A stretch of DNA of 35,935 bases from Candidatus Zixiibacteriota bacterium (lineage in GTDB: Bacteria; Zixibacteria; MSB-5A5; JAABVY01; JAHJOQ01). The stretch covers positions 1 through 35,935 of the forward strand of contig JAGVNY010000101.1 in NCBI GenBank assembly GCA_020053015.1, read 5' to 3'. Below, in pieces: positions 8,320 to 35,935 of this stretch. The notes beneath the pieces are model-generated. The model was not told the DNA's origin. It did no database searches and saw only the letters and a program-made list of their open reading frames with translations. Every line of letters starts with the position of its first letter. Position 1 is the stretch's first letter. A program made the position numbers and the translations under genes.

Positions 8320-8500
8320 GTTCGGGCAGGTCTTGCGATACGCGATCAGCGGATCGTGTGACCTGCCCGCAACGGGCAGCGAAAGTGCCGGGTCACACGC
8401 TCCCGACTTCGTCGGGGTCGCAAGACCCGTCGCAATTCCCGATGCGCGCCAGGGTCTTACGACAGCACCTTCTTCCGGAATGCCAACCAGCAGCAGCCGC
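8320..8500. repeat. Module-A interspersed palindromic repeat, copy 1
   Basis: The 312-bp gap between radA and mlaF holds a highly structured element. Its core is CGGGCAGGTC (8323-8332) paired with GACCTGCCCG (8360-8369). GTGTGACC and GGTCACAC then form an outer pair, and CCCGACTTCGTCGGG is a 6-bp stem with a three-base loop. GGGTCGCAAGACCC follows. The core and the GTCGCAAGACCC block recur at 24817-24926, and the core recurs with one stem mismatch at 35594-35642. All three copies are intergenic. No open frame runs through it in a convincing way. Confidence 0.75.
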
Positions 8501-24810: not shown

Positions 24811-24985
24811 TCCGATGTTCGGGCAGGTCTTGACTGCGACGAAGTCGCGGTTGTGACCTGCCCGCAAGAGATTGTGAGAGCGATGGTTCACACGCCCCGC
24901 TGCAGCGGGTCGCAAGACCCATCGCAACTCCTGACGAATATCTGACTCTTTCAACAGTCCCTTTCGCCGGAATGACAGACTGGGA
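24811..24985. repeat. Module-A/module-B repeat, copy 2, in the tldD-moxR gap
   Basis: The 547-bp divergent gap holds a second copy of the radA-mlaF element. CGGGCAGGTC (24820-24829) pairs with GACCTGCCCG (24855-24864), enclosing an inner GCGAC-GAA-GTCGC hairpin. CGGGTCGCAAGACCC follows, and then module B (24944-24978, CTTTCAACAGTCCCT...CGCCGGAATGAC). Module B recurs inverted at 35525-35559. The rest of the gap (24986-25180) shows nothing I can name apart from presumably holding promoters. Confidence 0.72.
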
Positions 24986-26234: not shown

Positions 26235-26344
26235 CTGCATTTATTGCGGTGTAGCGGCACGGCATGCCGTGCCGAAGGAGTAGGTCGGGTTCCGAATTCC
26301 CGCCCTGGCGAGAAAGAGAAACTCGACACAAAAGACACACATAG
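26235..26344. repeat. Palindrome and decayed MITE-like fragment between moxR and DUF58
   Basis: A perfect 20-bp palindrome (CGGCACGGCA and its complement, 26255-26274) is followed by a segment at about 26278-26328 beginning GGAGTAGGTCGGGTTCCG. This resembles the inner part of the MITE-like copies at 32.9 and 35.8 kb (GGAGTAGGTCGGGTTCCGGA...AAGAAGAAACCCGACAC), with several substitutions. It separates two genes that are normally co-transcribed. Confidence 0.6.
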
Positions 26345-32594: not shown

Positions 32595-32842
32595 TGATCC
32601 CCTTCCAATCATGGTGAACCCGTAGACTGAAGATCTGGTCGATGATCAGCATTGTACGACATGCCGGTCATTTCGTACCGAACCGTCTCTCCACCCGAAT
32701 CAAACGTTTTACCCTGCCGATCCGGCGGATACGGGATAGAATACAGAAGCCCGTCCGTCAGGTTTACAGCAAATTAGGCCGCTGCATAATATGGTGTCAA
32801 GTTCAAAACTGGAGAATTTCTATCAAAAATGTCAGCAGTGTG

Positions 32843-32997
32843 GAGGTTGTCTCGCAAGTGAGTAGGTCGGCCTCCGGAGTCACGCATGGCGTGACGCAGA
32901 AGGCCGACAAGTCCGTGTCGGGTTTCTTCTTGCGCTTTGCGCACTCCGGAACCCGACCTACTCCAATCAAGCATTTCGCACCTTATGAGACAACCTC
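32843..32997. mobile_element. MITE-like element with 11-bp terminal inverted repeats
   Basis: GAGGTTGTCTC at 32843-32853 and its exact complement GAGACAACCTC at 32987-32997 bound a 155-bp non-coding unit. TGTG lies immediately outside both ends (32839-32842 and 32998-33001), a possible 4-bp target duplication. Inside are short palindromes such as GTCACGC-ATG-GCGTGAC and GTAGGTCGG/CCGACCTAC. A similar copy in opposite orientation begins at 35804 and runs off the window. No transposase is present, so it would be mobilised in trans, if at all. The rest of the 534-bp gap shows nothing recognised. Confidence 0.72.
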
Positions 32998-33146
32998 TGT
33001 GGGGTGGGTCGGCGCAACGCGCCAGTCGAAGTCGGAGCTTATGATGGCGAAATCAAGCAGGACGGAATTCTTGATTCGCTGCGTCGGATGGAGAACGCGA
33101 CAGCACGTGGTTGCTTTCCGCGATCAGGAGCTGACAAATCCCGCAA

Positions 33147-35306
33147 CTACGGGCAGTCGCTACACGGAGCAGGGCCACTCGAGAAAATGAAAGTAATCAA
33201 ATATACTACATCGTCAATATCAACGGGCACTGAGCCGCCGCTGCAGTCGACATCAGCGGCTTCGATTGGATCGGGTGGTGTGCCACCTGCGAATATGTAG
33301 TTGATCAGGTACACGACATCGTCAATGTCGACTGCGGGATCGCCGGCGCTGCCGTCTGCGTCACCGCACTGATAAACGACAACCACAACATCTGCGCTGT
33401 CAAACGTGGCGCCGTCAGTGACAATCACTCGGAAATCGTCGATCTCCCTTTGCGATGGTGCGGTGCCAACCAGAGAGTCAGCGAGTTCGGACAACCACAT
33501 CGGGTAGCCTGTATACGAAATCGCGTGTGTAGTATCGTCAGGATCGACTACAACCGGATAGTACGCGAACCAACTGTCAGTCCGGCATAGAAGCGTATCA
33601 GGAGCGACAATCGACGGCGGCAGATTGACATCATTAACGGTGATTTCAACCAGCATCGTGTCGGCAAGACTCCCATCAAATGCTATGAAACGGACAGAGT
33701 AGATTCCTGATTGCGTCTTGTCAGGGTTGAAATCGAATATGCCCGTTCCATCGCCGTTGTCATCGAACGTCGCATGAAGCGGCATATTCTCAGCGGTCAG
33801 CGAAGAATTAGTTCCATCCGGGTCTGTTGCCGATACCGTGAAGTTCAGATTCTCGTCTTCATCCACAACCTGAGGTCCTATCTCATCAAGGGCGGGAGCC
33901 TGATTCGGGGCGGTAATCCTATAATGATGCGCTCCGGGTTCGCCGATGAAAGGATGAGTCTCCACCCGCCCTGATGCATCAGCAGTCTTGACAAAGTATG
34001 ACACTTCCGAGCCGGGCCCGACGGCCGGGATGTATCCTGCATAAGTGAACGGCGAACCGGTGTATATCAACGCGGCAGACACATAAGCTCCCTCGTTCAC
34101 GCTGTAGTAAATCTTTAGCGAATCGCCGATTAGAGGCTGGCCTGAGCACTCTTCTATGTGAACCGACACAAGCCGATCGTCGGTCGTGTTGTCCGTGTCG
34201 GCCAGCGGGTCGTGATCGAGCCACAGCATTTCCCTGTCCGGCACGCCCATTGCCCGGCAATGGATTGCGTCATCATCCAGCCATGAGCCAGTGAAACCTA
34301 AGACTTCGTAACCGGGCATCGCATCCTGATAGACTTGAATTGCGTCATCATCCCACGATGAGCTGAAGATCGGCACGAGCACTTTGTCGTTCAGAATTAT
34401 CGAATTGGTGTAAGCTGTTCCGCTCGGGCAGTAGACTCTCAGGACTCGATACGGCGTCCCCCATGCGCTCGTCAGCGTTGCCAAGTATGCAGCGCGCTGG
34501 TTAAGAAGGGCATAGCTGGGATCGCTCGACGGGACATTCTTGACCAGTATCGTATTGGGACTCAAAAATTTCGCCCAGCAATCGATATGATGGATTCCTC
34601 CCGACTCGACATACTCGAGCACAGTGTAGTCATTGCCAAGATAGGCGTACATTATCGAATCTATTTGCGCGTGAGTCTTTCCCGTGTTCTCATCCCATAC
34701 CAGACGCGAGGACATCGACATTCCGAGCCCGTCCGACATGTGATTGCCACCTGTGTGGGTCAGAGCCATGCCGTAGACAGGAATGCCCCAGGCAGTGCCG
34801 ATGACTTTCGGGATCGAATCGTCCAGCGGCCGTGGCCTGTTGTAGATGTGATCGACAATCCCGATCTGCTGATCGCTGAAGATGAACCACGGTCCATAGT
34901 CACGTGTCCAGTACGTGTTCGTAGGTGCGATGATGAACTGCGTGTGCGCCATGTTGACGCCCGCCGAAGTGTACGAGCTGATCGCACTCGTTCTCTGGGA
35001 TTCACTTCCCACTATCGTAGTCACCATTATGTCCTCGGACATTTCTTTGATGATGGCAACCGAGATCCCGAGCGGCCAGCGGATGATGACTCCCTCGGAG
35101 CGCTCCCACTCCGCGCAGTTGCGAATCCTTCCGGTCGGGGGAGCGGTGGCCGTGTGATACATCCCGATTTCGTGGAGGCGAGTCAGCTCCTCGGCAGTGA
35201 ACCCGATCGGCAGTGGATTCTGATCGTAGATCTCCTCGGACGCAGCAAACGACGCCAGCAACAGAGACAGAAGAAGCGCGCATAAGATGTTATTACATTT
35301 TCTCAT
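33147..35306 (-). CDS. Secreted peptidylarginine/agmatine deiminase-like protein with cadherin-like and dockerin modules
   Basis: Exported protein of 719 residues with a clear signal peptide (LLLSLLLASFAASEE). Residues about 55-375 match the Porphyromonas-type peptidylarginine deiminase/agmatine deiminase family, with the full catalytic set: D136 (TRDYGPW), H240 and D242 (GGIHHIDCWAKF), N301 (AYTNSIIL) and C350 (DDDAIHCRAMG). It should hydrolyse guanidino groups to ureido groups plus ammonia, on protein arginine or a small substrate. Beta-sandwich regions (about 390-660) follow, one cadherin-like with DEDENLNFTVSATDPDGT. The tail has two dockerin-like repeats (CGDADGS...VDIDDVVYLINYIF and DVDCSGG...VDIDDVVYLITFIF), likely calcium-binding and perhaps used for surface sorting. 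Substrate preference is unresolved. Confidence 0.88.
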   Translation of the reverse strand: MRKCNNILCALLLSLLLASFAASEEIYDQNPLPIGFTAEELTRLHEIGMYHTATAPPTGRIRNCAEWERSEGVIIRWPLGISVAIIKEMSEDIMVTTIVGSESQRTSAISSYTSAGVNMAHTQFIIAPTNTYWTRDYGPWFIFSDQQIGIVDHIYNRPRPLDDSIPKVIGTAWGIPVYGMALTHTGGNHMSDGLGMSMSSRLVWDENTGKTHAQIDSIMYAYLGNDYTVLEYVESGGIHHIDCWAKFLSPNTILVKNVPSSDPSYALLNQRAAYLATLTSAWGTPYRVLRVYCPSGTAYTNSIILNDKVLVPIFSSSWDDDAIQVYQDAMPGYEVLGFTGSWLDDDAIHCRAMGVPDREMLWLDHDPLADTDNTTDDRLVSVHIEECSGQPLIGDSLKIYYSVNEGAYVSAALIYTGSPFTYAGYIPAVGPGSEVSYFVKTADASGRVETHPFIGEPGAHHYRITAPNQAPALDEIGPQVVDEDENLNFTVSATDPDGTNSSLTAENMPLHATFDDNGDGTGIFDFNPDKTQSGIYSVRFIAFDGSLADTMLVEITVNDVNLPPSIVAPDTLLCRTDSWFAYYPVVVDPDDTTHAISYTGYPMWLSELADSLVGTAPSQREIDDFRVIVTDGATFDSADVVVVVYQCGDADGSAGDPAVDIDDVVYLINYIFAGGTPPDPIEAADVDCSGGSVPVDIDDVVYLITFIFSSGPAPCSDCP

Positions 35307-35935
35307 AACGTCACCGGGCTCTTTCTCTTATATCGAATCTGCAATACTCGGTCTGTAGCTAACAAAACGTGTTCTAAGAGTGCAATATACCGTAAAGTCA
35401 GATTCTGGCAAGAGCTAACGTGCAGCTATGCGAATACAACATGCCGCACGGCCGTCTCGGTCGTCCTTGAAGCAGCGTCGGGAATCCCGAGGTTGTCTCA
35501 TAAGTTCTGAATAGAAGAAAAAGACTGGATTCCGGCGTTCGGGACTGTTGAAAAAGTCCTGTTTCGGGTTGTGTGATTCTGAAAGGCGCATAGTGTTCGG
35601 GCAGGTCTTGACCGAGACGAAGTAGAGGTTGTGACATGCCCGTAAGGACTTATGGACGCGCCAGGTCATCGGCAAGTCGAGAACTCTCGCTCTTGACATG
35701 GTTGGTCATGCCGTGCGTGGCGGACGTCCCGTCTGCCACGAGGAATCAGTTGGCGCACAAGGATGTACGCCAACCACGAGAATAAAACGCTGTCAGGAGC
35801 AGAGAGGTTGTCCCACAAGTTGCGAAATGCTTGATCGGAGTAGGTCGGGTTCCGGATTGCGCCATGCGCAAGAAGAAACCCGACACCGACTTGTCGGCCT
35901 TCTGCGTCACGCGAAGCGTGACTCCGGAGGCCGAC
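35307..35935. repeat. Repeat-rich intergenic region at the right window end
   Basis: No gene is supported in these 629 bp. They hold a solo terminal sequence GAGGTTGTCTCATAAG (35489-35504), module B inverted relative to the 24.9-kb copy (35525-35559), module A with one stem mismatch (CGGGCAGGTC 35598-35607, GACATGCCCG 35633-35642), and two strong hairpins. The hairpins are CGTGGCGGACG/CGTCTGCCACG (35716-35740) and GTTGGCG/CGCCAAC (35749-35774). A truncated, reversed MITE-like copy follows from 35804. The deiminase promoter presumably lies in the first 100 bp. Confidence 0.7.
35804..35935. mobile_element. MITE-like element, second copy, reversed and cut by window edge
   Basis: It begins GAGGTTGTCCC (10 of 11 bases of the terminal repeat at 32843). 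Read on the minus strand it aligns with 32864-32997 with only scattered differences, including GTCGGCCTCCGGAGTCACGC, GACGCAGAAGGCCGACAAGT and ACCCGACCTACTCC. The far terminus lies beyond the window. Confidence 0.72.

Follow-up and report, generated by a model that had tools for sequence, protein, structure and literature searches.

The window, that is, the whole stretch of DNA that was analysed (35,935 nucleotides), is contig C140 of a metagenome assembly of Candidatus Zixiibacteriota, genome G000, which comprises 3.13 Mb in 263 contigs and is 88% complete. Between two long open reading frames, beyond the 3' end of the one at 33147-35306, lies a repeat of 155 bp that belongs to a family of MITEs; the only open reading frame of at least 100 amino acids that crosses it has both of its ends outside the element. 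The features of the locus are collected in Table 1.

Table 1. Position of the MITE, its parts and related repeats in the window
Feature	Position	Strand	Evidence
MITE, 155 bp, composite (IS1182-type ends around a REP pair)	32843..32997	+	sequence, genome search, fold, copy alignment
Left TIR, 17-bp form GAGGTTGTCTCGCAAGT; perfect 11-bp core at 32843-32853	32843..32859	+	
Right TIR GAGGTTGTCTCATAAGG; perfect 11-bp core at 32987-32997	32981..32997	-	
TGTG, left copy of the target duplication	32839..32842	none	
TGTG, right copy of the target duplication	32998..33001	none	
First REP hairpin, GTAG-tagged (GTAG-GTCGGCCT...AAGGCCGAC)	32862..32908	+	
Second REP hairpin, inverted (GTCGGGTT...AACCCGAC-CTAC)	32917..32961	-	
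REPIN-like dimer, both REP hairpins together	32862..32961		
Second MITE copy, inverse orientation, ends at the contig end	35804..35935	-	
TIR of another member, different interior	35489..35505	+	
Half target palindrome (CGTCGGGAATCCC) adjoining the end at 35489	35476..35488	+	
Lone GTAG-tagged REP hairpin without TIRs	26280..26327	+	

The perfect 11-bp ends (GAGGTTGTCTC and GAGACAACCTC) and the TGTG on both sides that a preliminary description of this DNA had reported are exact, and the inverse second copy that it had placed from 35804 shares 92% identity with the first across 132-136 nt. Its "solo end" at 35489 is a real TIR, which caps a different interior of the TCTGAATRGAAGAAAAAGACTGGATTCCGGC type; similar interiors stand behind the same TIR in L071, L074 and L088, and no partner end (11-bp core, up to 2 mismatches) was found between 35489 and the copy at 35804. 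What had been taken for a decayed internal fragment of the MITE, at 26278-26328, turned out to be a single GTAG-tagged REP hairpin, which stands alone in relatives too. When only the window was scanned with the 11-bp pattern at 2 mismatches, 19 matches were obtained against 12.4 expected, and 4 of 100 shuffles reached 19; this is barely above chance, so the proof rests on the genome-wide copies.

Copies, boundaries and target duplications

The genome-wide search for copies that the preliminary description had proposed gave at least 47 matches, of which at least 40 (the best 40 of 134 candidates) had an E value of 2.6e-42 or better; the query included the REP pair, and copies without the pair could have escaped. 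The element is short (155 bp) and non-coding, with fixed ends and many copies (at least 40 strong matches), as expected of a MITE. When up to one mismatch was allowed, the 17-bp end pattern matched 86 times in the own genome and its reversed control not once. Of the 132 genomes of the class, 38, including the own genome, contain the pattern; the next highest count is 46, and some of the low per-genome counts do not exceed those that controls reached elsewhere. Thirty-three elements with two ends were recognized in the own genome; 23 of them are 154-155 bp long and two are 163 bp long.

Twenty-six copies were aligned with their flanks, and conservation falls at both ends, where the boundaries had been placed: the majority base has a frequency of at least 0.88 in 30 of the 40 outermost columns of the element and of 0.31-0.77 in the flank columns, the upper values of the latter being due to target palindromes common to the copies. 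Pairwise identity among these copies ranges from 78 to 97%, with a median of 87%, and the activity is therefore old. Several contigs of G000 (C131, C55, C217, C128 and C173) and the window itself break inside MITE copies; the family therefore breaks up the assembly, and some flanks may be chimeric.

Duplications like TGTG, exact over 4-5 bp, were found in 14 of the 33 elements (two of them being 5 bp), as the preliminary description had anticipated. When the flanks were re-paired at random in 10,000 trials, the mean was 2.06 exact duplications and the maximum 8. Elements of other genomes of the class behave in the same manner, with an exact duplication in 15 of 28 (mean of 2.1 and maximum of 9 in 10,000 re-pairings); the nearest relatives among those listed belong to other genera of the same family. 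The remaining 19 elements of the own genome include 4 that match at three of the four bases, 7 whose flanks look inverted and 8 that are neither. The inverted class has a mean of 7.4 after random re-pairing; a special mechanism behind "inverted loop" pairs is rejected, their frequency being that of re-paired flanks, and the class fits the expectation under recombination between copies or assembler mis-joins.

Palindromes as targets

Many copies are centred in a palindrome, GTCRGGAA-NNNN-TTCCYGAC. Homology extending past the terminal repeats had been named in the preliminary description as an argument against a MITE, and it does exist in part, 22 of the 33 elements having some of GTCRGGAA...TTCCYGAC on at least one side; yet we read it as the target. 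One could instead suppose that the element is longer and owns these arms, the TIR of 11-17 bp being no more than the inner portion of a 30-bp terminal repeat, given that many copies carry GTCRGGAATCCY beyond the left end and the complementary sequence beyond the right one. Against this, 11 of the 33 elements, the window copy among them, lack the GTCRGGAA arms, and in 9 of the 11 an exact duplication directly adjoins the TIRs; the own genome holds 29 palindromes of this kind without insert (17 perfect matches and 12 that differ at one position, the reversed control giving 0); and the arms are absent at the right flank of L164 and at both flanks of L166, two IS1182 elements of the same class. 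Moreover, other palindromes occupy the same place elsewhere, namely GGCAGATG/CATCTGCC, GTGGCGGAC/GTCCGCCAC (L088) and GGCAGACG/CGTCTGCC (L129 and L131); CGGCAGATG/CATCTGCCG is the target palindrome of L014. A longer element is thus very improbable, and the outer palindrome as an element part is largely refuted by the duplication-bearing copies without outer arms. From the insert-free sites, the armless elements with duplications and the substitute palindromes, we take the GTCRGGAA palindrome for target and not element.

In 17 of the 33 elements of the own genome and in 24 of the 28 of other genomes, the target arms pair at no fewer than 7 of 10 positions; the corresponding means are 8.6 and 8.3 when arms are re-paired, and 0.12 and 0.14 when their letters are shuffled. 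An exact duplication and palindromic arms occur together in 7 of 33 and 13 of 28 elements, respectively, that is, in 20 of 61 overall. The target of the window copy itself is not palindromic, with 2 complementary positions of 10. Altogether these data show a preference of the MITEs for the loop of pre-existing palindromes, the loop then being duplicated. Among the more distant named IS1182 loci, an automatic search (45 of 79 loci, 39 of them with a pair of inverted repeats) gave 2 duplications and 1 palindrome, with a routine that lengthened the inverted repeats in the outward direction and may have set the ends wrongly; only the TIR motif was used from these named loci, and the outcome lends no support to the loop rule beyond the class of the window.

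Origin of the ends and of the interior

The preliminary description had suggested a search for an insertion sequence with the same ends. Such elements exist in genomes of the same class, and none was found in the own genome as far as assembled (88%). L166 is an IS1182 element of 1,536 bp whose TIRs both fit the 17-bp pattern and which has TCCC on either side; its right flank spans just 5 bases. L150, an IS1182 element of 1,495 bp, has one fitting TIR and one that departs from the pattern by 1 mismatch, and no clear target duplication was seen. L164, an IS1182 element from a genome of the window's family, has a fitting right TIR, its left end being cut off. Against NF033551, the NCBIfam model of IS1182 (cut-off 270), the transposases score 348 (L166), 351 (L150) and 317 bits (L164). 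The one IS1182 element found in the own genome (positions 1307-2976 of locus L066, on contig C106; 1,670 bp, with an open frame of 486 amino acids) has the TIR CAGACTGTGTCGTAATT, which differs from the MITE end by more than 4 mismatches. MITEs usually, though not of necessity, have a partner within the same genome. Partners of MITEs may also have been lost (PMC3852290). Of the 79 named IS1182 loci, 48 contain GG[CG]TGTC[CT]CA somewhere on each of the two strands, 18 have it on a single strand and 13 lack it, and the reversed control occurs on both strands in none of the 79; the MITE ends are thus ordinary IS1182 ends. A 27-bp pattern of the right end had 0 matches in the named-genome collection, which may omit the own genome of the window.

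These findings support the reading of the preliminary description, namely a MITE with defined ends and 4-bp duplications and its past activity, through the alignment of copies, the statistics of target duplications in the own genome and in relatives, and the IS1182 elements with the same ends.

The inner 100 bp (32862-32961) are a separate repeat, composed of two inverted REP hairpins with GTAG at each outer foot: GTAG begins at 32862 and is found on the opposite strand at 32961, the arrangement of a REPIN. The interior, or one hairpin of it, is found without TIRs in relatives and at 26280 of the window. In relatives, Y1 transposase genes have REP hairpins to their left and right in four neighbourhoods, namely L178, L180, L195/L055 and L196, of three same-class genomes, out of 30 loci taken from 41 matches, a count with no hairpin-density control behind it; the REP stem at L196 differs. 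With the RAYT model NF047646 (cut-off 80), L180 and L055 score 110 bits each, and L108 of the own genome scores 138; the Y1 genes of L178 and L196 were recognized by PF01797 only. No REP motif was found at the six Y1 loci of the own genome, in stretches of up to 1.5 kb on each side. The interior is a REP pair of a RAYT (HUH tyrosine transposase) family, probably once an independent mobile repeat.

Since the interior is a GTAG...CTAC REP pair and the own genome encodes a RAYT, the entire unit might be moved by that enzyme as a REPIN, with the outer TIRs as mere passengers. This is hardly credible, in that the copies stop at IS1182-type TIRs with 4-bp duplications and the same ends are kept around quite different interiors. 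Such duplications are not known from HUH transposases.

The ends are in fact not tied to one interior. In the own genome they cap others, for example in elements of 132, 266, 377, 398 and 501 bp, and within the class the interiors behind the same TIRs vary between genomes. Of 27 interiors from other genomes, 17 have a fold z below -3 and 4 have GTAG...CTAC more than 25 bp apart, both counts being given without a matched control (for the fold, neighbouring DNA). On contig C9 of genome G082, truncated MITE copies separated by other sequence form a near-tandem array (L218) with a period of about 214 bp.

The 155-bp unit folds into a very stable hairpin (-89.5 kcal/mol, z of -8.5), which, together with its location between two long open reading frames and past the 3' end of one of them, could suggest a conserved structured RNA or terminator and not a mobile element; dozens of dispersed copies with duplications and the ends of an IS family make this scarcely tenable, and the TIRs and REP pair account for the fold. 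A secondary effect of the MITE on transcripts is possible.

Interpretation and relation to known systems

Taking all this information together, the locus is best read as a non-autonomous transposon, a MITE with IS1182-family ends and a REP-pair interior, of a family that prefers palindrome loops as targets and duplicates the loop; we give this reading a probability of nearly nine in ten. An IS1182-type DDE transposase, acting in trans, is predicted to bind the GAGGYTGTCYCANAAGT ends; it would excise or copy the 155-bp unit and join it to the target with a 4-bp stagger. With the loop of a palindrome as the preferred target, the loop would be duplicated and the arms left on either side. The transposase that mobilised the MITE in trans has presumably been lost or was missed in the assembly, and the target may be recognized as a cruciform or loop. 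The GTAG-tagged REP pair would have been nested between IS1182 ends and then spread along with them; nesting probably came before the 155-bp unit spread, since length and junctions are common to the copies.

Several known systems share some of these features. MITEs of ISMac2 (IS1182 family) in Methanosarcina acetivorans, of 160 and 169 bp in 14 and 7 copies, are likewise IS1182-derived and similar in length, and the first has 4-bp direct repeats; their inverted repeats are longer (26 and 25 bp), and the parts of that article drawn upon here describe neither a REP-dimer interior nor palindrome-loop targets (PMC3852290). ISPse1, an IS1182 element of Paracoccus, has 16-bp inverted repeats and a 4-bp direct repeat, but it is autonomous, and the main text of its paper does not mention palindromes or hairpins (PMC3281130).

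A parallel for the target is IS1272, which belongs to the same transposase family and uses an inverted-repeat target (PMC5678879). Its new insertions replace the stem-loop without duplication, whereas the MITE described here keeps the arms and duplicates the 4-bp loop; L014, L026, L088 and L010, for example, show neither the loss of the stem-loop nor the lack of a duplication. The model of IS1272 transposition includes a hypothetical pathway (c) in which the loop is duplicated, and part of the flanks described here match it (PMC5678879). The 20 elements with both an exact central duplication of 4-5 bp and retained arms are unlike the replacement reported for IS1272.

The interior recalls GTAG-tagged REPs and REPINs with their RAYTs (PMC3733652, PMC3116915), which share the inverted pair of GTAG-tagged hairpins, and in the relatives studied here such hairpins flank RAYT genes. 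In A. variabilis, GTAG-15 dimers are present inside long palindromes (PMC3733652); the dimer of the MITE is instead enclosed by a transposon that has IS1182 ends and duplications. Insertion at a symmetry axis with short direct repeats is known from ISRm22 and ISPsy8, which insert at the axis of REP palindromes, and hybrid elements of this type of IS have been ascribed to recombination between copies; these are full-length ISs with 6- and 3-bp repeats and REP targets, and not a MITE family that uses several palindromes (PMC1525189). A search of titles and abstract openings in openly accessible literature found no prior report of an IS1182 MITE enclosing a REP pair. IS1182 MITEs and REP dimers in palindromes are already known, and the composite make-up found here is uncommon.

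More tentatively, and with the odds somewhat against it, IS1182-type ends in Candidatus Zixiibacteriota could serve as a general cassette that repeatedly captures REP hairpins made by RAYTs and inserts them into other palindromes at the loop, so that DDE and HUH enzymes together would build nested hairpin mosaics, with the loop duplicated and the arms kept as in the third, hypothetical pathway proposed for IS1272. The family provides a natural data set of many copies for the choice of palindromes by IS1182-family transposases, and a REP pair riding in a DDE-type MITE bears on the spread of hairpin repeats and on the origin of nested mosaics in uncultured bacteria.

Two further observations concern the window. 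The intact palindromes at 35716-35740 (CGTGGCGGACGTCCCGTCTGCCACG) and 35750-35773 (TTGGCGCACAAGGATGTACGCCAA) resemble flank sites of L088 and L098 and are possible empty targets. Other dispersed hairpin repeats, of the GGGCAGGTCTTGAC...GTGACCTGCCC and GACTGTTGAAAAAGTC types, pair 24816-24868 with 35594-35646, 8357-8485 with 24852-24977, and 24944-24973 with 35529-35558; repeats of these types are also found within elements bearing the TIRs of the MITE.
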